Of a stretch of 33,404 bases of DNA, positions 23,769 to 33,273 are shown piece by piece. Each line of letters starts with the position of its first letter. Position 1 is the first letter of the stretch. Under the pieces are notes generated by a model, which was not told the origin of the DNA, did not search any database, and saw only the letters and a list, made by a program, of their open reading frames with translations. The DNA is from Granulosicoccus sp. (lineage in GTDB: Bacteria; Pseudomonadota; Gammaproteobacteria; Granulosicoccales; Granulosicoccaceae), in the NCBI GenBank assembly GCA_023300375.1, contig JALZWO010000145.1, positions 1 to 33,404 of the forward strand. Reading direction: 5' to 3'. The position numbers and the translations under genes were made by a program.

Positions 23769-24725
23769 TTATGGCTCATTGGATCGAGTGCCGTAGATGT
23801 CTGCGCGCGCTAACGTGCGCGTCGCCCAAGCGCGATGAGTTGCAGGTTCTAGCATGGCTCCATCGCGTTTGAACACAGCGGGTGCTGATGCGTCTAGTAC
23901 TTGCCGGGCATCGTTGAGCATGGAATCGGTGACGGCAAAACACTGTTGAATTATTTCGATTTGGCACGGATGAATAGCGGTCTTCCCCACGAAACCGAAA
24001 TTGACATCCTGCATGCATTCTCGGGTTAGTGTTTCTGGATCGTCGGTGATGTCAAAGACAGGCGCTGTTAGAGCGAAGCCATTGCCGCTCAAATTGCACA
24101 TAAGCTGAGACAAGCAGCCTGCTAAGGGGCCGTCGTACAGAGTTTGCCCACGCACGCGTCGCAGTGCCAAATGTGACAGCAAATCATTGCCACCTATGCG
24201 TAGTGCCAGGATGCGATTCTCGGCTGTCTGCGCTAAGGTTCTGGCAAAATGACTAACCGCTACTGCATCGAATACCCAGGCATTCTCAAGAGTGGGCATT
24301 AATAGAATGTCAGCTTGATGGGCAAGATTGACCCAATGGGAAAGGGTAGCTATATCAAGCTTGGGTACCACAAAGCCATCGATCTTTCCAATGCCATGAA
24401 AGGCCACAATTTCTTTAGCCATATTTAGATCCCGTGGTCGAACGAACACCAAAGGGCCTTCGGACATGTGGTTGTCGTCGTTTGCTAACAGATCGCGAAC
24501 CACATTAAGTCCTTGGCTAACATCGTCGTGATGTAATGCGTCTTCAAGGCAAAGCACCACAGAGCGTAGTTGCGGGTAACGCTCGCCAGTCACTATTTTT
24601 GTCACCAGTGGGTGAATAACGGGCACATACATTGTTGCGCCCAGTTGCAACGGATCAATTTTTTTGATGTCCACAGCCGTTGTCTTATCCATTGTCATTG
24701 TTGTCGAGCTTGCCACGATTGGCAA
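23769..24725 (-). CDS. CitE-like HpcH/HpaI aldolase/lyase of the Ter biosynthetic module
   Basis: A 318-residue TIM-barrel protein of the citrate-lyase-beta/HpcH family, which make or break C-C bonds next to a carboxylate or CoA thioester using Mg2+. Family blocks are visible: VVLCLEDALHHDD, LVFVRPRDLN, GFVVPKLD, LLMPTLENAWV, LALRIGGNDLLS and FGFVGKTAIHPCQ. It is the last gene of the minus-strand operon whose other members are the Ter-linked phosphoribosyltransferases and HAD protein. Published genome analysis places such a lyase in that module. The given start overlaps the previous gene by 41 bases. The ATG ending at 24698 (MTMDKTTAV) would cut the overlap to 14 and is equally plausible. Confidence 0.85.
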   Translation of the reverse strand: MPIVASSTTMTMDKTTAVDIKKIDPLQLGATMYVPVIHPLVTKIVTGERYPQLRSVVLCLEDALHHDDVSQGLNVVRDLLANDDNHMSEGPLVFVRPRDLNMAKEIVAFHGIGKIDGFVVPKLDIATLSHWVNLAHQADILLMPTLENAWVFDAVAVSHFARTLAQTAENRILALRIGGNDLLSHLALRRVRGQTLYDGPLAGCLSQLMCNLSGNGFALTAPVFDITDDPETLTRECMQDVNFGFVGKTAIHPCQIEIIQQCFAVTDSMLNDARQVLDASAPAVFKRDGAMLEPATHRAWATRTLARADIYGTRSNEP

Positions 24726-25920
24726 TGATAGTGATAGCCCGATAGGGTGCTATGGACTCACCACGCTCATCAATATATACGCCCGCTTGCGTTGCCAGAT
24801 GAACAAGTGCTGCAAGATCTTCTTCATCTTTTGAGGACACAATGATGCGCTCAGGTACACGTCGCAGCACAGCACGTGTAGCTTCTGCGATACCGGGCTT
24901 AATACGATTGATGTTATCTATGCTGAATTCTGTACCAATGCCAGTGATGACCGCTTTTGCTTGCGTGGCTACATCGGTGGATGCTGCATCTGTCTTACTC
25001 ATTGATTGATGAGTTGCACTGTTGTCACTGGCGGCAGCTAAAGCCACAAGTGTGTGGGCGTGAATGGTATCGACAAATTCTCGAGAAAGATCAAAGCTTG
25101 TCAGGTAGTCCAGCTGTGCACAGGCATGAAATTCAGTACTGGTCTGCCAACCTTTACGTAGTACCGATCGGCTAACCAGTCCAGACACCGTACTTCCAAG
25201 GATGCCCGAGGGGATGAGCCAGTCTTCACACGAGGCGCTGAGCCATGCACGACCGGCAGGGTCTGCCAAAGTTACAAGCCGTGGTTCTATACCCAAGTGC
25301 GCATGTGTGGCTATTGATGATTCAAGTTCGTCGCTAATAGCACCTTTGCCTGTCCAGCCATCAACAAATACAACACTGCTTGCTTCATGCATAGTCAGTA
25401 CATGGTTGAGTGCGTTTGCATCGATGCCTCTGTCCCTGATAATAGAGATGCCATAGTGCGTGGATTCACGTCCCAGTTGTTGCAGTGCTCTGTGTATCAG
25501 CACGCCAACAGGCACACCTGCTCGCACCAACGATAAAAGCGTAATGGGGCCTTCAACTCTATCGCTTAATTGTTGAGCCAAGCACGCGATGTCCTCGCCC
25601 ATACGTTTGCCAAAGCGTGTCACTGCCTGCTGGAAAATCTTCACGTAGCGCTCATCTGGCTCACTCTCGCGCGAGAGCATGTCAGAGTAATGGGCGATGC
25701 CTTGTTGAATCAATCTTTCTTTGTCTGTGGTGGGCGTGTAATAACTTTCAATTTCTTCAGGCGATAATGCACTCAACAGAAACGTAATGTCCTCACTTGA
25801 ATAGGTGCCTAAGGTGTGCTCTTCAGAGTATTGTGGTGTTTCTTGGTTAGTGGTTTTCGGCGTGCTTTTATTTGTGTTCATACGCGATGTATTCACGTTT
25901 TTGTCGTAGGTGAAAAACAT
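24685..25920 (-). CDS. phosphoribosyltransferase-like protein with C-terminal PELOTA-type RNA-binding domain (StiP family)
   Basis: About 411 residues. An orotate-phosphoribosyltransferase-like domain (about 60-290) carries TLLSLVRAGVPVGVLIHRAL and a PRPP-binding-like loop VFVDGWTGKGAI (184-195). After an Ala/Ser/Thr linker, residues about 320-405 look like the PELOTA-type RNA-binding domain described for these proteins (VITGIGTEFSIDNINRIKPG, IIVSSKDEEDLAAL, GVYID). Databases sometimes label the family 'cysteine protease StiP', a name with little functional support. In Ter-linked operons it is thought to help make a ribosylated, nucleoside-like metabolite. The frame opens at 25920, overlapping the HAD gene by 28 bases. 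The ATG ending at 25881 (MNTNKSTPK) gives no overlap and may be the true start. Confidence 0.82.
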   Translation of the reverse strand: MFFTYDKNVNTSRMNTNKSTPKTTNQETPQYSEEHTLGTYSSEDITFLLSALSPEEIESYYTPTTDKERLIQQGIAHYSDMLSRESEPDERYVKIFQQAVTRFGKRMGEDIACLAQQLSDRVEGPITLLSLVRAGVPVGVLIHRALQQLGRESTHYGISIIRDRGIDANALNHVLTMHEASSVVFVDGWTGKGAISDELESSIATHAHLGIEPRLVTLADPAGRAWLSASCEDWLIPSGILGSTVSGLVSRSVLRKGWQTSTEFHACAQLDYLTSFDLSREFVDTIHAHTLVALAAASDNSATHQSMSKTDAASTDVATQAKAVITGIGTEFSIDNINRIKPGIAEATRAVLRRVPERIIVSSKDEEDLAALVHLATQAGVYIDERGESIAPYRAITIIANRGKLDNNDNG

Positions 25921-26678
25921 TGGTCAAGCTGCGATTGTGTGGGCGTTAGCCATAAATCACACAAACGCATAAATGCAAGATCACTCGTGCTATCGCCAAC
26001 ACCGATGGATACGAAATCTGCATCTGTCTGCCACTGTGTAATCAGATAACTCACAGCTTCTGCCTTGTTGATTCCACCCGGCATGATAGATAAGTTATTG
26101 CCATTAATGTGGTATTGCCACGCGGCTTGCACATGCTCAGCTGATTGCGAAATGTGACTTTTAAACTGTTCTAAAAGTGTATTCAAGCCAGATCCGTCGG
26201 AGTGGCTGTTGGATTTGGCCACCGCGTACACCGCTCCACAGGAGGGTTCCATCACCGCCCATGTTCGAATGTCCATCGTGTTGTTATCGGCAAGTTGTTG
26301 AAGTATGTCTGGCAGTTCTTGAATTAAGCTCTGCGTGGCCGCTAATGTGGCGCGAACCTGTGTGGCCCATGTTGAGTTTATTGATCCATCACGATCGAGT
26401 ATGACCGCACCATTCGCGACAACAGCTGCTGGGCCTGCGAAGGGTATCGCAACTCGCGAGTAAGCTTCAGTGCCTCTTGCGGTTACTGGTACGCAGCGCG
26501 ACACATCCAACCATTTTAATACCGAGGCTTGCTTGCGGTTCATATAGCTGTCTTTACCACCGGCAGCACGTGCGGCAATAGTTAGCTCTTGCTTTTCAGA
26601 CTCTGGAAATTTTCTCAAGGTTTTGAACAGTGAGTCGTCCAGATCGCTAAAGACTAATACTTCAGGTAAATTCGTCAT
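25893..26678 (-). CDS. HAD-superfamily phosphatase of the Ter biosynthetic module
   Basis: A 261-residue HAD hydrolase of the Cof/sucrose-phosphatase type. Motif I is FSDLDDSLF with nucleophile D12 and acid/base D14. Motif II is the threonine in PVTARG. The motif III lysine is in GGINKAEAV, and motif IV is GVGDSTSD. A cap domain fills about 90-180. It starts 5 bases after the PRTase-TRSP gene and is followed by the PRTase-PELOTA gene, so it is part of one operon. The likely job is removing a phosphate from a ribosylated intermediate; the substrate is not known. Confidence 0.86.
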   Translation of the reverse strand: MTNLPEVLVFSDLDDSLFKTLRKFPESEKQELTIAARAAGGKDSYMNRKQASVLKWLDVSRCVPVTARGTEAYSRVAIPFAGPAAVVANGAVILDRDGSINSTWATQVRATLAATQSLIQELPDILQQLADNNTMDIRTWAVMEPSCGAVYAVAKSNSHSDGSGLNTLLEQFKSHISQSAEHVQAAWQYHINGNNLSIMPGGINKAEAVSYLITQWQTDADFVSIGVGDSTSDLAFMRLCDLWLTPTQSQLDQCFSPTTKT

Positions 26679-26683
26679 TGGCT

Positions 26684-27976
26684 TTAACTGTTATCTGTAG
26701 TTAATTGTTGTAATAACAAGGACTCAACACCATTAGTGGTGTGTTCATACTTTATAAACTGATCATCAAACAGGATGTGCGCACGAAGAGCACTGATCAA
26801 TCTGGGGTCAACATTTTCTACAGAAGTGTCAAGGCAGATAATAATGCTGGAGTAGTGATCAGGGTTAACGTTGTACAGATAGTTTGTGATACCCAAACCT
26901 TCGTGATCATTAAAACTGAACGCGTAGTGTATGTCGTGACCCAGTTTAATAGGCGAGCGAGTGGTGGAGCTGAATAGCACTTTATGCGATTCGTGTTCCA
27001 ATGCTTCAGCCAGTAGTAGTGGCTCCCACACGTGTTCACCAGTACCGAGTACTAGTAGTGGGCGTTCGTCTTTCTTCCACTCTTCAGCAGCCACCAATAG
27101 AGACTGGGGCACGATAAAGGGTGTTTGTGCAGAGTTACCGATACGCGCGTCCCCGGCTCTGTTTAAGGGTTGGCTTGCCAACAATGATGGCGTGTCTGGA
27201 TCAGGCAATGTTTGTGTCGGCGCATTTTCATCTGCATGCCATTCATAGGTGCCGTTGAGTAATGCGTGTCTTTGTGCCAGCACATACCCACTAGGCGCTG
27301 TCTCACTGGGCACGGTAATGTCGCTGGAAGACCAATCCGTGAGTGTTAGAGCGTAGACCTGTTCAAGGTGAGAGATGCCAGCCGCGTGAAGGGCTTGACC
27401 CAACGATTTCATAGTGTTGCCAGAGCTGGTTTCATCATCCACCATCACAAGTGTGCGGCACGTTTTCAGCAGTTCGCGATCATGCTCTGCGGCAGGTTGG
27501 TACAAACAGTGTCCAGAAGCGTGACTATGATCTTCAGAAAATCGCGCAAACAATACCTGATCACGTTGAGCGCGGGTACTGGACACGTTCAGCACATCAT
27601 TGCGTGATGTTTGGCGTAAGTACGCATCATGTACACCCGCACCTAAGCCTACGGCAGTTTCAGCCATGCTCGTCATTAATATGGGCCCGGGAAGATCGTT
27701 TGGCAGGTAGTGGGCCAGATCGGTGAATGATTGACGAACCTTGGCAGGGGTGACAGGAATATGACGTCCGAGCACGCGTGATACAAAAACGAAAGATCGG
27801 CGAGGGTTGATGCGTTCTCCAAAGCCAAAAAGCAGTTCGCTATCAACACCTTCTTCAAAACTGGTTTCGATAGTGCCGGTTTGTAATGTTGCAGCGCGTT
27901 TGCGCGGTTTGTTGGCATCGACACTATGTTGAGTGTCGTTCGTATTTGCGTCGTTATCTTGGTTAGAACGTGTCAA
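26684..27976 (-). CDS. phosphoribosyltransferase-TRSP domain protein of the Ter biosynthetic module
   Basis: A 430-residue protein. After a polar N-terminal tail (1-28) comes a phosphoribosyltransferase domain (about 30-230) with GFGERINPRRSFVFVSRVLG and the PRPP loop VMVDDETSSGNT (178-189). A Pro/Thr-rich linker leads to a C-terminal TRSP domain (about 290-430: LLVLGTGEHVWEPLLLAEAL, TRSPIKLG, FNDHEGLGITNYLYN), named for the TRSP motif seen here as TTRSP. It is the first gene of the minus operon, diverging from terD. The only in-frame start is TTG (27974-27976), with no clear ribosome site. The conserved region begins near residue 30, so the exact start matters little to function. Assignment follows the published Ter-associated module. 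Confidence 0.85.
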   Translation of the reverse strand: MTRSNQDNDANTNDTQHSVDANKPRKRAATLQTGTIETSFEEGVDSELLFGFGERINPRRSFVFVSRVLGRHIPVTPAKVRQSFTDLAHYLPNDLPGPILMTSMAETAVGLGAGVHDAYLRQTSRNDVLNVSSTRAQRDQVLFARFSEDHSHASGHCLYQPAAEHDRELLKTCRTLVMVDDETSSGNTMKSLGQALHAAGISHLEQVYALTLTDWSSSDITVPSETAPSGYVLAQRHALLNGTYEWHADENAPTQTLPDPDTPSLLASQPLNRAGDARIGNSAQTPFIVPQSLLVAAEEWKKDERPLLVLGTGEHVWEPLLLAEALEHESHKVLFSSTTRSPIKLGHDIHYAFSFNDHEGLGITNYLYNVNPDHYSSIIICLDTSVENVDPRLISALRAHILFDDQFIKYEHTTNGVESLLLQQLTTDNS

Positions 27977-28012
27977 GGGAGCAATGAATCTTTGTGTCGG
28001 CTAAGCGCCGTG

Positions 28013-28018
28013 AGTATA
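28013..28018 (-). promoter_or_regulatory. possible -10 element of the Ter biosynthetic operon
   Basis: On the minus strand TATACT matches five of six -10 positions and lies 37 bases before the TTG start, implying a leader of about 30 bases. The -35 region is weak, which suggests help from an activator or another sigma factor. Confidence 0.35.
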
Positions 28019-28043
28019 CACAGCCGCCTTACGAATATTTTCT

Positions 28044-28058
28044 CGATGGAGTACATCG
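28044..28058. repeat. inverted repeat between the two Ter arms
   Basis: CGATG-GAGTA-CATCG, with a third CGATG at 28066-28070 followed by GTATAC. It lies between the two divergent -10 elements and could be a regulator site. No regulator gene is present in the window. Confidence 0.35.
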
Positions 28059-28110
28059 AAAACCACGATGTATACCAGCGCATGTGGATTCTCGAATTGC
28101 TGCTAAGGTG

Positions 28111-28127
28111 CTTGAAATCAAGCGCTT
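28111..28127. repeat. overlapping palindromes at the -35 region of terD
   Basis: CTTGAAATCAAG (5-base arms, centre AA) overlaps the perfect palindrome AAGCGCTT (28120-28127). Both lie where a -35 box would be for the TATAAT at 28140. That is a position suited to activator or repressor binding. Confidence 0.4.
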
Positions 28128-28139
28128 GCGCCCCCAATT

Positions 28140-28145
28140 TATAAT
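28140..28145 (+). promoter_or_regulatory. -10 element of the terD arm
   Basis: A perfect TATAAT, 53 bases before the terD ATG. No -35 consensus is found 16-18 bases upstream; palindromic sequence is there instead. A transcript would begin near 28152. Confidence 0.5.
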
Positions 28146-28197
28146 CGGTGTGGAGGCGATTCTGCACAACCCTGCGAAACTACACGGAGATCAGCCA

Positions 28198-28800
28198 ATG
28201 AGCGTCAGCCTATCAAAAGGACAGAAAGTCAGTCTTGAAAAGCCAGGTGGCGGTGGTATCGCAAAGCTGCACATGGGGCTAGGTTGGGATCCTGCAGAGA
28301 AAAAAAGCGGTGGATTTTTCAGCAAGTTGCTCGGTGGTGGCGGCGACTCAATCGATCTGGATGCCTCTTGCATTGTTTGCGCAGCAGACGGCTCTCCCAT
28401 TGATCTTATCTGGTTTCAAAAATTGAAGGCCGATGACGGCTCTATATTACACACCGGTGACAACCTCACTGGTGAAGGCGACGGTGACGATGAAAGCATC
28501 AAGGTTGACACCGCCAAGTTACCTGCCAATGCGGCGCACTTGGTATTCACTGTCAATTCTTACCGTGGTCAGACATTCAACGAAGTGGCTAACGCGTTTT
28601 GCCGAATCCTCGATGAAGGGTCAAACCAAGAGATTGCTCGCTACACCTTAACCGAGCAGGGAACGCATACTGGTGTGGTTATGGGCGTATTGTCTCGTGA
28701 CGGGTCTGGCTGGTCATTCACAGCAAAAGGTACACCTGCAACAGGGCAATCAGCGCAGGATATGTACGCTGCGGCCAAAGCTGCTATAGCTGGCGCATAG
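28198..28800 (+). CDS. terD: TerD-family calcium-binding stress protein (first copy)
   Basis: A 200-residue TerD domain protein. The family start SVSLSKGQKVSLEK, the strand DLDAS (53-57) and the acidic calcium loop [15 protein letters not shown] (85-99) are intact. TerD proteins bind Ca2+ and take part in resistance to tellurite, phage and other stress. A Gly-rich, partly hydrophobic insert (SGGFFSKLLGGGG, 37-49) precedes DLDAS and is missing from the second copy at 32630. A C-terminal tail (AQDMYAAAKAAIAGA) is added. The frame is open from 27994, but the ATG at 28198 has ACGGAGA 7 bases upstream and matches the family start. Confidence 0.92.
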   Translation: MSVSLSKGQKVSLEKPGGGGIAKLHMGLGWDPAEKKSGGFFSKLLGGGGDSIDLDASCIVCAADGSPIDLIWFQKLKADDGSILHTGDNLTGEGDGDDESIKVDTAKLPANAAHLVFTVNSYRGQTFNEVANAFCRILDEGSNQEIARYTLTEQGTHTGVVMGVLSRDGSGWSFTAKGTPATGQSAQDMYAAAKAAIAGA

Positions 28801-28850
28801 TTTCAAAAATTTCGTTACTCGGCACTTGAGCCGATGCAGAGGTTTGTAGC

Positions 28851-30089
28851 ATGACAGCGTTGGTGCAAGGACAGAACACGGCTCTTTCGGGAACCGCATT
28901 CACAGTAAAGGTCATCTGGCGCTGTGATCCGCAGTCGCCAGAGATCGACGTCAGCGCGTTTATGCTGGAGGCGTCTGGCAAGGTGTCGGGTGACGAGGAC
29001 ATGATTTTCTATGGGCAAAGTGCGTCCAGAGATGGCAGTGTTTCAATTAACACGGGTTCAAGTAGCCCTGCAGTTTCTACTGGCGGCGATACACAGTTCG
29101 CTGTCGATTTGCCTATTGTCTCGACGAGTGTCGAGCGCATTGCCTTCACAGCGACCACACCTGCTGCCACTTCCCAGTCATTGAGTGCTATCAATTCACT
29201 GAGCATTAGAGTGAGTTCAGATTCTGGAGACGACTTCTCTTTTGAGATAGACACACGCTCATCAGCTGAAGCTGCCATGATTTTGGGTGAGTTATATCGT
29301 CGCAACGATCAATGGAAGTTTCGTGCGGTCGGGCAGGGCTTTGAAGGCGGGCTTGCGCCATTGGCTGAGCACTTCGGTGTGGAAGTGGATGACGCTGGTG
29401 CTGAACCAACGCCCGCTGCTGGCAACGTGCAGACAAGTACAAGTGCGCCACCAGCACCCGCAAGTGCGCCACCGGCGCCCACTATCAATCTCGACAAAAT
29501 CTCGCTTTCCAAGAACAAGCCATCAGTGAGTTTGGAAAAGCGCGGAGCGTCGCTTGGTGAGGTTCGCGTTAATCTTAACTGGAACCAAAGTAAGGTAATG
29601 ACCAAAGGCTTCTTTGGCATTCAGAAAGAAAAAGCTATTGATCTGGATCTAAGCTGCTTGTTTGCCTTGAACGACGGTGGCAAAGGCGCTGTTCAAGCGT
29701 TGGGGCATAATTTTGGTGCTTACGAACAAGCGCCGTGGATTCATCTTCAAGGTGACGATAGAACAGGTGGGGTGAGTGACGGTGAGTGGTTGCGCATCAA
29801 TGGTGCACAATGGTCGAATATCAAGAAGATTGTTATATTTGCTTTGATCTACGAAGGTGTCCCCAACTGGGCATCGACCGATGGCGTGGTCACCTTACAT
29901 GTTCCTGATCACCCTTTGATTGAATCCAGAATGGACGGCGAATCCAATTCAAGAGTATGCGCAGTTGCTGTATTAGAGAATGATTCAGGGCGGTTAAAGA
30001 TGACGCAAGAAAACAAATACTTCAAATCGGCCAAGGAACTCGATGAGCATTATGGCATTGGTTTAGCTTGGACAGCTGGCCGTAAGTAA
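28851..30089 (+). CDS. terA: TerA: tandem TerD-domain protein
   Basis: A 412-residue protein with two TerD-type domains. The first (1 to about 185) begins MTALVQGQNTALSG and keeps the core (DVSAFMLEASGKV, GDEDMIFYGQ, EAAMILGELYRRN, VGQGFEGGLAPLAEHFGV). Its calcium loop is replaced by NTGSSSPAVSTGGD. A Pro/Ala-rich linker (about 195-215) leads to the second domain (about 217-405): KISLSKNKPSVSLEK, IDLDLSCL, HLQGDDRTGGVSDGEW and the end YGIGLAWTAGRK. This second domain keeps acidic loop residues. Two-domain layout and length match TerA of tellurite-resistance operons. It follows terD after 50 bases. Confidence 0.88.
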   Translation: MTALVQGQNTALSGTAFTVKVIWRCDPQSPEIDVSAFMLEASGKVSGDEDMIFYGQSASRDGSVSINTGSSSPAVSTGGDTQFAVDLPIVSTSVERIAFTATTPAATSQSLSAINSLSIRVSSDSGDDFSFEIDTRSSAEAAMILGELYRRNDQWKFRAVGQGFEGGLAPLAEHFGVEVDDAGAEPTPAAGNVQTSTSAPPAPASAPPAPTINLDKISLSKNKPSVSLEKRGASLGEVRVNLNWNQSKVMTKGFFGIQKEKAIDLDLSCLFALNDGGKGAVQALGHNFGAYEQAPWIHLQGDDRTGGVSDGEWLRINGAQWSNIKKIVIFALIYEGVPNWASTDGVVTLHVPDHPLIESRMDGESNSRVCAVAVLENDSGRLKMTQENKYFKSAKELDEHYGIGLAWTAGRK

Positions 30090-30187
30090 TCTCGAAAATG
30101 CTTGTGGTTTTCCTCAGTATTACCGCTTTGATGGTGCACGAAAAAACGCTTTTATCGCTCACAGATAAACTTTAGGGTGTAGTTCGC

Positions 30188-31405
30188 ATGGTAGAGCTAG
30201 TTCAAGGGCAGAACACAGACCTGGCTGGAAACTCATTTAAAGCACGTGTGCTTTGGACAGGGGGTTCACCTTCTTCGCCTGTAGATGCCAGTGCTTTCAT
30301 GCTGCAAAGCTCCGGCAAAGTGTCGGGTGATGAGGATATGGTGTTCTACGGGCAGAAAAGCTCAAGCGATGGCAGCGTTTCTATTGTTGCTGAACAGGCT
30401 GAGACAGGTAACAGCGGTGGAGAAGTAGAGTTCTCCATCAATATCTCAAAGGTTGCAGGGTCAGTTGAGCGTATTGCTTTCACAGCCACCACGCCCGCTG
30501 AAAGCTCTCCACCTTTAAACACTGTCGATTCGCTCAGCATCAAGCTCACCCCTGAATCAGGTGATGCAATTGCATTCAATATAAACACAGCTTCGTGCAC
30601 TGAGGCGGCGATGATTCTTGGCGAATTCTACCGGCGTAATGGTCAATGGAAGTACCGAGCGGTAGGTCAAGGGTTTGAAGGCGGCTTGGCACCGTTGGCG
30701 ACACACTTCGGTGTGATGGTGGATGGCGATGAGAAAAGTACTCCTCCACCTACTGAGCCAAAAACGGCGGACGAAAATCCTCAGCCGAGCTTGAAAAGCG
30801 CACAAGAGAACAGACATTCTGACACAACAAAGGTAGACACAGCTAGCAGTACGGTTAGTCAAAATCCGACCCCCGTGCCGCCAGCTAGTCCTATCCAGCA
30901 GCAAACCCAGACACAGACTCCACCTTCAAACTCAACAACTAGGGACAACTCAATGCTCGACTGGCTCAAGAAAAACACAGAAACCGCGCGTGCTGCATTG
31001 ACTGCAGAGATCGGCAAATACAAGAACAAAGGCTTCATGGAAGCTGTGGTATCGGCTTGCGCGCTAGTAGCAGCAGCAGACGGCAACGTCAGTTCCGAAG
31101 AGAAGCAAAAGATGATGGGTTACATGCAATCGTCTGACGAGCTAAAGGTGTTCAAGACGCTGGATGTTATGAATGCATTCAACGATGCGGTAGCCAAATT
31201 CGAGTTCGATGCTGAGATTGGAAAAGCTGAGGCATTGAAGACGATTTCTAAATTGAAATCTGATGAGGGTGCTTCGAAGCTACTAGTTCGTGTGTGTTGT
31301 GCCATCGGTGCTGCAGACGGTGAATTTGATGCCCAAGAGAAAGCGATGGTAGCTCTGATTGCAACTGATCTGGGCCTGAATGCTGCAGAGTTTGATTTAG
31401 CGTAA
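30188..31405 (+). CDS. TerD-TerB fusion protein
   Basis: A 405-residue fusion. The N-terminal TerD-type domain (1 to about 185) is a close paralog of the TerA N-terminal domain (AFMLQSSGKVSGDEDMVFYG, EAAMILGEFYRRNGQWKYRAVG) and likewise lacks the acidic calcium loop. A Pro/Gln/Ser/Thr-rich linker (about 190-255) follows. Residues 256-405 form a complete TerB: MLDWLKKNTETARAALT, FKNKKFM-like YKNKGFMEAVVSAC, the two DG motifs AADGNVSSEE (D298) and AADGEFDAQE (D377). TerB is a helical metal-binding protein, usually about 150 residues on its own, exactly the size of this part. An AGGGA (30941-30945) stands 7 bases before the ATG of M256, so a free TerB may also be made. It lies 98 bases after terA. 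Confidence 0.9.
   Translation: MVELVQGQNTDLAGNSFKARVLWTGGSPSSPVDASAFMLQSSGKVSGDEDMVFYGQKSSSDGSVSIVAEQAETGNSGGEVEFSINISKVAGSVERIAFTATTPAESSPPLNTVDSLSIKLTPESGDAIAFNINTASCTEAAMILGEFYRRNGQWKYRAVGQGFEGGLAPLATHFGVMVDGDEKSTPPPTEPKTADENPQPSLKSAQENRHSDTTKVDTASSTVSQNPTPVPPASPIQQQTQTQTPPSNSTTRDNSMLDWLKKNTETARAALTAEIGKYKNKGFMEAVVSACALVAAADGNVSSEEKQKMMGYMQSSDELKVFKTLDVMNAFNDAVAKFEFDAEIGKAEALKTISKLKSDEGASKLLVRVCCAIGAADGEFDAQEKAMVALIATDLGLNAAEFDLA
30941..30955 (+). promoter_or_regulatory. possible internal ribosome site and start for free TerB
   Basis: AGGGA at 30941-30945, a 7-base spacer, then ATG at 30953-30955 inside the TerD-TerB frame. The ATG falls exactly where stand-alone TerB proteins begin. Translation from here would yield a 150-residue TerB in addition to the 405-residue fusion. 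Confidence 0.45.
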
Positions 31406-31421
31406 GTCGTTCTATGTTTAA

Positions 31422-31452
31422 CCAGCGTTTGGGCTAGAGGCCTGGGTGCTGG
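31422..31452 (+). terminator. 13-base hairpin after the TerD-TerB gene, no T-run
   Basis: CCAGCGTTTGGGC pairs with GCCTGGGTGCTGG around a 5-base loop. The middle five pairs are G-U, so it forms only in RNA from the plus strand. It starts 17 bases after the stop. Without a T-run it is more likely a partial terminator or mRNA end protector than a full stop for the operon. Confidence 0.4.
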
Positions 31453-31558
31453 ACATGTCCTTATTGTAAAGAAACTTGACATGGAGCATTACAGTCGGTC
31501 TGTAGCAAAGCTCATTTACCTTTTGCCCGTTTAATGTTTGTAAGAGACGTTTTGAAGA

Positions 31559-32518
31559 ATGATTGAACTATCAACTTATGAAGTCGGCGTACTCGCCGCA
31601 GGCGCTATTGTTGCCGGAATCTGGCTATTGGTTAAGGGCGGGGACTGGACTATTGATGCTGCGGTTGCGATAGCCCAACGAGCCAAACTGTCACCAATGT
31701 TTATCGGTGCAACGATAGTTGCGTTTGGTACGTCCTTACCTGAGTTGTTCACTTCAATCAACGCTAACCAAGCTGGTTTTCCTGGGATCAGCCTAGGTAA
31801 TATCGTGGGTTCCAACATTGCCAATGTATTACTGGTGTTGGGTGCTGCGGCTCTGGTTATCCCGCTCACTGCAAACAAAAAAGAGGTTGCCCGAGACCTC
31901 ACTCTCATGCTGGTCGCCACTGCAATCCTAGTAGCCGGTATGCTCTACGGCGTTTTTGATCGCTGGCTTGGTGGTCTTATGTTTCTTATGCTTGCAGGTT
32001 TTACACTATGGCAATACCTGCGAAGAGAGATTGATACCAGCGAAGTAGAGGAGCATGAAATGACTGCTATGAACGCGGCAGGAATTCTTGCTGCAGGCTT
32101 CGTAGCATTGATGGTCGGCTCTGAACTATTGGTTCGAGGGGCAGTTGTTGCAGGTGGTGTTATTGGTGTTCCAGAAGCTATTATCGGTATGACTGCTGTT
32201 GCCCTAGGTACTTCCTTACCGGAACTCACCGCATCGCTTGCGGCTGCTGCTAAACGTGAGACCAGCTTGATGTTCGGCAACATTATTGGTTCTAACACTT
32301 TTAATATCTTGTGGATTGTGGGTGCAACTGCGCTTGCGAAACCACTGGTTGTAGACTCATCATTACTCGGCCTAGAGCTTGGCTTTATGGTTGCAGTGAG
32401 CGTTGGTTTTGCTGCGATGCTTTGGATGGGAATTACCATTTCACGCAAAGTAGGTTTTGGGTTCCTCGCAGCTTACATAGCGTTCACTCTGTACCAGTTC
32501 AGATCCACCATTTTCTGA
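31559..32518 (+). CDS. CaCA-family Na+/Ca2+ antiporter inside the ter cluster
   Basis: A 319-residue inner-membrane exchanger with ten hydrophobic segments in two inverted halves. Both alpha repeats are intact: GTSLPELFTSI with GNIVGSNIANVLLVLG (about 57-95), and GTSLPELTASL with GNIIGSNTFNILWIVG (about 217-260). The conserved glutamates and Ser/Asn that bind Ca2+ are present. The family (YrbG/CaxA type) exports calcium in exchange for sodium or protons. It lies between the TerD-TerB fusion and the last terD, where other ter clusters often carry TerC. Since TerD proteins bind Ca2+, a role in setting calcium for the Ter proteins is a fair inference. A TTGACA at 31476 has no good -10 partner. 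Confidence 0.9.
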   Translation: MIELSTYEVGVLAAGAIVAGIWLLVKGGDWTIDAAVAIAQRAKLSPMFIGATIVAFGTSLPELFTSINANQAGFPGISLGNIVGSNIANVLLVLGAAALVIPLTANKKEVARDLTLMLVATAILVAGMLYGVFDRWLGGLMFLMLAGFTLWQYLRREIDTSEVEEHEMTAMNAAGILAAGFVALMVGSELLVRGAVVAGGVIGVPEAIIGMTAVALGTSLPELTASLAAAAKRETSLMFGNIIGSNTFNILWIVGATALAKPLVVDSSLLGLELGFMVAVSVGFAAMLWMGITISRKVGFGFLAAYIAFTLYQFRSTIF

Positions 32519-32617
32519 TTCACTCTTAAAATCTAGATTCGAAAGGTTGCTTGCGAATAGCAGGTGGCCAAGTCCTCAACCATTTACTCGTTTTATCACA
32601 TTTACTATTTAATCAAC

Positions 32618-32632
32618 AGGAGATAGACCATG
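32618..32632 (+). promoter_or_regulatory. strong ribosome binding site of the second terD
   Basis: AGGAG (32618-32622) with a 7-base spacer before ATG (32630). It is the best ribosome site in the cluster and suggests high expression of this TerD. Confidence 0.7.
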
Positions 32633-33208
32633 GGAGTTTCACTGTCCAAAGGCGGTAACGTTTCACTGAGCAAAGAGGCCCCGGGCCTTAGCAATATTGT
32701 CATTGGTCTTGGGTGGGATGACCGCTCAACAGATGGCTCTGATTTTGACCTAGATGCATCACTGCTTATGCTTGCAAGCACTGGCAAAGTACGTAACGAT
32801 AAAGATTTTATCTTTTACGGTAATCTGAAGTCTGGCGACGGATCTGTTGAGCACACTGGTGATAACCGCACAGGTGAAGGCGACGGGGACGACGAGAAAA
32901 TTAATGTTTCTCTCAACCAAGTGCCTGCCGACGTTGAGAAGCTAACAGTTGTGGTAACTATCCATGAAGCTGAAAGCCGTAACCAGAACTTTGGTCAGGT
33001 TAGCAATGCTTTTATGCGTATCGTTAATGGCGACGGTGGAACTGAAATCGCACGTTACGACTTAAGTGAAGATTTCTCAACAGAAACGGCTGTTATTTTT
33101 GGCGAAGTTTACCGCAACAACGGTGAGTGGAAATTCAAAGCAAACGGGCAGGGTTATGCTGGTGGTTTGGCCAAAGTTGCAACCGACTTTGGTATTAACG
33201 TAGGTTAA
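32630..33208 (+). CDS. terD: TerD-family calcium-binding stress protein (second copy)
   Basis: A 192-residue canonical TerD/TerE protein. It has [38 protein letters not shown] (25-43), [23 protein letters not shown] and the full acidic loop [15 protein letters not shown] (75-89). The end [18 protein letters not shown] followed by FGINVG is typical. Compared with the first copy it lacks the Gly-rich insert and C-terminal tail. It follows the calcium exchanger after 111 bases and precedes a strong terminator, so it closes the operon. The closest named relatives are TerD and TerE; the sequence alone does not separate them. Confidence 0.93.
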
Positions 33209-33222
33209 AATTTAGATCTACG

Positions 33223-33273
33223 GCGGCGGTGCGTTTAGGGGTTTTGCTCCTGAATGCACCGCCGCTTTTTTTT
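33223..33273 (+). terminator. strong rho-independent terminator after the ter arm
   Basis: GCGGCGGTGC (33223-33232) pairs perfectly with GCACCGCCGC (33256-33265). Inner GTTTAGG/CCTGAAT continues the stem, with two G-U pairs, around a short loop. Eight T follow. No gene is seen in the remaining 131 bases of the window. Confidence 0.93.

Follow-up and report, generated by a model that had tools for sequence, protein, structure and literature searches.

A Ter stress-response locus of Granulosicoccus with a predicted calcium exchanger at the position of TerC

Results

Organization of the Locus

The stretch of DNA analysed here (the window; 33,404 nucleotides) is a complete contig (C145, JALZWO010000145.1) from a Granulosicoccus sp. 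genome of 4.58 Mb, assembled in 247 contigs and 97.5% complete. It carries a Ter locus of nine genes, all of which were confirmed as full open reading frames (ORFs) at the coordinates originally predicted (Table 1). Four minus-strand genes, encoding a PRTase_2-TRSP protein, a HAD phosphatase, a StiP-PELOTA protein and a C-C bond lyase, are referred to as the metabolite arm. The plus-strand arm comprises TerD and TerB genes together with a predicted exchanger, named CaX here, in the order TerZ, TerA, TerD-TerB fusion, CaX, and TerD. Both arms diverge from a region of 221 bases, and 196 bases remain between the stop codon of the last TerD gene and the end of the contig.

This two-armed content had been proposed from the sequence alone and is borne out by the ORF positions and Pfam scores, with each of the four minus-strand proteins falling into a Ter-linked family above the cut-offs. 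The StiP family, PF11202, is taken here to be what the original prediction called PRTase_1. Four metabolite-arm proteins encoded together and a linked arm that has TerB and TerD paralogues constitute the content of a Ter system, and the region is almost certainly a Ter stress-response locus. Its closest named relative is a metagenome-assembled genome of a Granulosicoccus sp., whose PRTase_2 is 89% identical to that of the window.

Table 1. Genes and intergenic region of the Granulosicoccus Ter locus, with positions in the window and Pfam scores in bits
Feature	Position	Strand	Basis
CitE-like TIM-barrel C-C bond lyase	23769..24725	-	PF15617 (C-C_Bond_Lyase) 273.7
StiP (PRTase_1)-PELOTA protein, predicted phosphoribosyltransferase with RNA-binding-type domain	24685..25920	-	PF11202 302.2; PF15608 (PELOTA_1) 85.4
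HAD phosphatase	25893..26678	-	PF08282 (Hydrolase_3) 25.4, weak (cut-off 20.9)
PRTase_2-TRSP protein, APRT-like phosphoribosyltransferase	26684..27976	-	PF15609 168; PF12500 73.9
Divergent intergenic region, presumed shared regulatory region	27977..28197		221 bases between start codons
TerZ-like TerD-domain protein	28198..28800	+	PF02342 157.4
TerA-like protein; two partly degenerate TerD-type domains	28851..30089	+	PF02342 167, two stretches
Degenerate TerD domain fused to TerB	30188..31405	+	PF02342 125.7; PF05099 74.3
CaX, YrbG-type Na+/Ca2+ exchanger in TerC position	31559..32518	+	PF01699 (Na_Ca_ex) 187.7
Canonical TerD	32630..33208	+	PF02342 286.4

An Exchanger at the Position of TerC

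TerC is a member of the canonical terZABCDE operon, whereas the window's genome has no TerC above the cut-off and CaX lies at that position. The original prediction had listed the exchanger but missed that it occupies the place of TerC. CaX passes the TIGR00367 model for YrbG-type calcium/sodium antiporters (219.3 bits against a cut-off of 179.65) and aligns to the exchanger NCX_Mj over residues 11-307 (E about 1e-34). It has in common with NCX_Mj/YrbG-type exchangers the glutamates of both alpha-repeats, E62 and E222, which are conserved in 10/10 CaX-type rows of the alignment and are represented by E and D in two rows of a second exchanger type described below. CaX differs from these proteins in its location within a Ter operon and in Asn249, which stands at the second-repeat aspartate of NCX_Mj, presumably D240 in that protein's numbering; asparagine is likewise found in three aligned Granulosicoccus exchangers that are not linked to Ter genes.

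CaX adjoins TerB in six genomes, four of them from the same genus (G000, which is that of the window, G008, G023, and G026) and two from another class (G153 and G999). On its other side lies TerD in G000, G008, G023, G153, and G999; the contig of G026 ends after CaX. Searching 398 Pseudomonadota genomes at E≤1e-60 recovered only CaX itself and the Ter-linked protein of G153. A search of 39 relatives of the window's genome returned 39 matches at E≤1e-15, of which the three Ter-linked proteins score highest (G000, G008 at 98% identity, and one of the two matches in G023 at 52%). The remaining 36 are at most 43% identical, and none of the 27 of these ordinary exchangers that were examined has TerD, TerA, or TerB within about 1.5 kb.

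In a tree of 40 proteins, from which the duplicate L062 and the fragment L067 were left out, the six Ter-linked CaX proteins and one unlinked protein from a Roseicitreum plasmid form a clade (100/100) apart from the ordinary Granulosicoccus exchangers. CaX of G023 groups with that of G999 despite their different classes (92/78, below the starred level), which suggests transfer of the gene between lineages. Relatives of CaX were also found in 95 plasmid records; in the five inspected (H44, H45, H50, H63, and H68), none was beside TerD or TerB in the stretches shown, and H50 has a TerC-family gene near its CaX relative.

A second type of CaCA exchanger, distant from CaX, forms a clade of its own (100/100), whose members are long-branched and unusual in composition. 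It adjoins TerB in three genomes, in the order TerB-exchanger-TerD in G886 and StiP-exchanger-TerB in G134 and G158. Members of this subfamily (L057 6857-8005, L043 12579-13727, and L044 6511-7659) have an E/D acidic pair and an acidic loop.

Transporter Families across Ter Loci

Ter loci were sampled through PRTase_2 and, independently of it, through TerD. PRTase_2 was found over the cut-off in 5 of 57 relatives and, at E≤1e-15, in 12/398 genomes of Pseudomonadota, 9/369 of the same class as the window's genome, and 4/385 of the class of G153; these draws overlap and together amount to 25 genomes. The proposed linkage of the two arms holds in 19 of the 25, where no more than about 10 kb separates Ter genes from PRTase_2, but divergent orientation is not universal: by our own reading the arms diverge in 10 of the 19 linked loci, and they are co-directional in G023, G153, and G999. 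Two of the six unlinked genomes, G048 and G058, have PRTase_2 on short contigs and TerD on another contig, and G542 has Ter-type matches about 14 kb away. The stretches fetched around PRTase_2 in G306, G720, and G496 contain no Ter genes.

The transporter recognised at or near the 25 PRTase_2 loci is TerC in five, DUF475 in three, CaX in six, and the second CaCA type in three. None was recognised locally in the other eight; these include G048 and G058, in which DUF475 or TerC adjoins TerD on the other contig. The independent sample gave TerD (E≤1e-30) in 36 of 344 genomes; 40 stretches around TerD were fetched and annotated with hidden Markov models built from the loci in hand, which assigned TerC to 15 of these genomes, DUF475 to 4, CaX to 2, the second type to 2, and no transporter to 13. 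With ten genomes from the PRTase_2 sample added, the tally for 46 TerD genomes is TerC 17 (counting G155, whose match is very weak at 28 bits and lies 761 bases away), DUF475 7, CaX 6, second type 3, and none 13. It leaves out G615 (a 3.7-kb contig), G1072, and G542, which have Ter-type genes and no recognised transporter, as well as the TerD places G048:C1 and G349:C229 near 54957.

At no locus among the 46 genomes were two transporter families found together. For the mutual exclusion of CaCA exchangers and TerC/DUF475, Fisher's test gives p=0.0005, or 0.004-0.006 with relatives collapsed to six loci, values that are rough because related genomes enter the test as independent cases. When 25 loci, most of them without a recognised transporter, were scanned for hydropathy, seven had membrane ORFs of at least five predicted spans no further than 3.5 kb from a Ter gene; one of these ORFs is the CaX of G008 itself.

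Absence of TerC and ATP-Grasp Genes

The original prediction described the locus as compact, with neither TerC nor an ATP-grasp enzyme in the window. Since the window ends with the contig, the absence of TerC from it alone said little. Across the 97.5% complete genome, however, TerC gave only a match below the cut-off (23.2 versus 27.8 bits). A scan of 4.5 kb downstream of the near-identical G008 locus (L030) gave no TerC match, and of the eight CaCA-bearing genomes that were checked, five (G000, G008, G026, G999, and G134) lack a TerC above the cut-off. The ATPgrasp_Ter model matches in the window's genome only inside a 1081-amino-acid ORF (31.2 bits, cut-off 29.1), which by its length would be a carbamoyl-phosphate synthase; the model also matches in 13 of 14 control genomes and is therefore unspecific.

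Inspection of the flanks and the genome therefore turned up neither gene beyond unspecific or sub-cut-off matches, and both absences are supported. Compactness as such is not unusual, since a search with two reference proteins (E up to 1e-4) detected an ATP-grasp relative in only 5 of the 25 loci, and an ATP-grasp enzyme is therefore not treated as required for a Ter system.

The Metabolite Arm

The residues expected of the assigned enzyme families are preserved along the minus-strand arm. In PRTase_2, the phosphoribosyl pyrophosphate (PRPP) loop residues D180, D181, E182, G186, and T188 are invariant in 11/11 aligned sequences, and an AlphaFold2 model of the PRTase_2-TRSP protein (four-sequence alignment; mean predicted local distance difference test score [pLDDT] 70) matches APRT with Z 12.1 and a root-mean-square deviation (rmsd) of 2.9 over 166 residues. 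The DxD and GDSxxD motifs of the HAD protein are invariant in 8/8 aligned sequences, as are E147, D181, and R96 of the lyase in 9/9.

StiP has a PRPP-like loop in which D187, G188, W189, K192, G193, and I195 are invariant in 10/10 aligned sequences. No cysteine is invariant among 10 aligned relatives, the best column holding it in 7/10. An AlphaFold2 model of low confidence (four-sequence alignment, mean pLDDT 52) matches HGPRT with Z 10.0 and an rmsd of 4.1 over 169 residues. All 50 VIA-align matches listed are phosphoribosyltransferases or PyrR-type proteins, VIA re-aligning only Foldseek's own matches; Foldseek, run on the same model, gave no match at E≤0.001, and its top 50 are mostly HGPRT or PyrR but also include aminotransferases, MurQ, and CsdA. 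Because it lacks an invariant cysteine and its model resembles HGPRT and PyrR, the "cysteine protease StiP" looks misnamed and is read here, with reserve, as a protein of phosphoribosyltransferase fold. A literature search yielded no paper recognised as dealing with StiP of this kind. Against the PADLOC models, none of the nine locus proteins gave a match at E≤0.001; a link to defence is, like the nucleoside product, a prediction from the literature.

The TerD/TerB Arm and the Intergenic Region

The TerD domains were compared at nine acidic positions, which are our own choice from the alignment. Canonical TerD is acidic at 9/9 and matches the solved TerD 2kxt (E 1.9e-89). The TerZ-like protein keeps 8/9, the first and second domains of TerA 3/9 and 5/9, respectively, and the TerD domain of the TerD-TerB fusion 3/9. 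A longer ORF that would start TerZ at a GTG at 27994 is probably a mechanical extension. The TerD-TerB fusion also occurs in G008 (L030), and TerB is a separate gene in the IncHI2 and Pseudomonas aeruginosa loci considered below.

The intergenic region is likely a shared control region for both arms. It is identical to its G008 counterpart at 196 of 221 positions (89%), whereas the third codon positions of TerZ and CaX are 72-74% identical, and the first 160 bases on the PRTase_2 side (27977-28136) hold 10 of the 25 differences, making them about 94% identical. No sigma-70-like site was found in the 221 bases, and no riboswitch or other known RNA matched in Rfam up to E=1 between 23500 and 33404. 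Compared with shuffled sequences, the plus-strand leader folds modestly better (z -2.0) and the minus strand hardly so (z -1.2). A small conserved ORF in the gap was considered and rejected, because the sites at which the window differs from G008 are not periodic by codon (9, 10, 6).

Relation to Known Ter Systems

Ter-dependent stress systems with a predicted nucleoside-like product and a membrane complex of TerD, TerB, and TerC were reportedly described by Anantharaman, Iyer and Aravind in 2012. This signal model is restated in a later paper (PMC7824862), and another describes the Klebsiella pneumoniae ter locus as two operons on opposite strands (PMC8115787). With the same two arms and the product model already described, neither the layout nor the product hypothesis is new.

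PRTase_2 relatives were found in 2552 of 72,556 plasmid records. On the Escherichia coli IncHI2 plasmid NZ_CP122916.1, terZ-A-B-C-D-E lie on one strand and genes for an ATP-grasp enzyme, PRTase_2, HAD, StiP, and a CitE-like protein on the other. The gene order, the two divergent arms, and the combination of TerD/TerB genes with a metabolite module are those of the window, whereas the IncHI2 locus has TerC, ATP-grasp, TerW, and VWA genes, and the window has CaX at the position of TerC and no ATP-grasp gene. A P. aeruginosa plasmid carries the same genes as the IncHI2 locus, all in one direction.

PRTase_2, HAD, StiP, and TerD also occur together, as in the window, in the Acinetobacter jumbo phage vB_AbaM_ME3 (L046, KU935715.1, 849-10880), genes already described as a Ter system (PMC7824862). 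The phage differs in having a DUF475 membrane protein, in its nearby VWA, macrodomain, and NAD synthetase genes, the last two of which possibly point to a chemistry involving NAD, and in that the stretch gave no match to the lyase. A scan of viral contigs with a single PRTase_2 protein found no match, and alignment-based scans found the ME3 phage and one further contig. The latter (L109/L111, IMGVR_UViG_2660238583_000003) carries TerC and ATP-grasp in a ter locus of Pseudomonas-like type and may be a misfiled plasmid.

From these comparisons, the exchanger at the TerC position appears to be the new element of the variant, the two-armed layout itself being known. A literature search conducted mostly at title level, and without the 2012 survey, found no exchanger in a Ter locus, and novelty in print is not established; nor did it return a match for DUF475 with TerD or for TerD with PELOTA and a phosphoribosyltransferase.

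Discussion

The locus is best explained, with moderate confidence, as a Ter stress-response system in which a dedicated calcium/cation exchanger stands in place of TerC and which combines a signal with cation movement. That CaX functionally replaces TerC is the firmer part of this explanation and is probable, based on the shared position, the recurrence in six genomes, the Ter-linked clade, and the lack of any locus with two transporter families. The cation-signalling mechanism is put forward more tentatively. It would start with the minus-strand enzymes making a small nucleoside- or nucleotide-like compound: the APRT-like and HGPRT-like phosphoribosyltransferases would couple a base with PRPP, dephosphorylation would fall to the HAD enzyme, and the CitE-like lyase would alter a side chain. 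The TerD and TerB proteins, some of whose TerD domains may bind cations, would form an inner-membrane complex around CaX in which TerB and TerD would sense the compound or the ion. On triggering, CaX would exchange Ca2+ (or a different divalent ion, Mn2+ being one candidate) for Na+ or H+, a task that TerC or DUF475 would perform elsewhere.

These observations hint that the membrane part of Ter systems works by moving metal ions. In a broader and rather speculative form, the Ter membrane arm would need some divalent-cation transporter, with TerC, DUF475, and the two CaCA clades being interchangeable, and Ter signalling would be a calcium or manganese response whose single circuit links a nucleoside-like messenger, TerD cation sensors, and a membrane exchanger. 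Plasmids of enteric bacteria commonly carry Ter loci, and Klebsiella that has lost terC is reported to be less resistant to tellurite, zinc, and phage (PMC12054061). If TerC is replaced in nature by a transporter with structurally solved relatives (NCX_Mj), the likely job of TerC narrows to the movement of divalent cations. For finding the metabolite, the Granulosicoccus loci have the further advantage of being short and lacking ATP-grasp.

Several findings weigh against this interpretation. No transporter was recognised in 13 of the 46 TerD genomes or in the three Ter-bearing genomes outside the tally, so the membrane slot is not obligatory. Three CaCA-bearing genomes (G023, G153, and G886) keep TerC elsewhere, four of the six CaX loci come from one genus, and one member of the CaX clade, that of the Roseicitreum plasmid, is not beside Ter genes. 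The second exchanger in G134 and G158 is not between TerB and TerD, and the three rows of its type in the tree have the long branches and odd composition mentioned above. To these are added the relatedness of the genomes entering Fisher's test and, for the metabolite arm, the poor StiP model, with its aminotransferases and MurQ-type proteins among the Foldseek matches.

Some of the same findings would suit an alternative in which CaX is an accessory Ca2+/Na+ housekeeping gene caught in the operon, adding calcium homeostasis rather than doing the job of TerC, which would have been lost for other reasons. The window's genome has a single CaX at E≤1e-15, which could serve general calcium balance, and both the genomes without a transporter and the unlinked clade member point the same way. 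This alternative is considered unlikely. CaX is found next to TerB in genomes of two classes, exchangers of a separate clade share this neighbour, and no examined locus has two transporter families.

A different alternative concerns the metabolite arm, which might salvage or repair damaged bases or nucleotides instead of making a signal, leaving the Ter arm only to sense stress. The phosphoribosyltransferase domains do resemble APRT and HGPRT of purine salvage, and the HAD enzyme and the lyase would fit the clean-up of modified nucleotides, but 19 of 25 genomes have Ter genes linked to the module and a jumbo phage carries it, which would better suit a dedicated function in stress or conflict and makes salvage rather improbable. 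That StiP is a cysteine protease and the minus arm includes proteolysis, as the PF11202 label and RefSeq annotations of plasmids would have it, is highly improbable in view of the missing invariant cysteine, the conserved PRPP-like loop, and the phosphoribosyltransferase and PyrR-type matches of the low-confidence model (top Z 10.0).

Beyond the genes of the exchanger-containing Ter locus itself, two sets of neighbours were noted. In three genomes from two classes, the small membrane protein DUF1523 is encoded next to the metabolite arm or to TerB (L029 11005-11649 and L058 7330-7965 by Pfam; L059 from 8988 by tblastn). Relatives of a plasmid PP2C phosphatase and an InaA-type kinase lie near Ter loci of both the CaX and the TerC type (L034 2621-5393, L042 14846-17421, and L116 from 3128) and possibly represent a conserved phosphorylation module.

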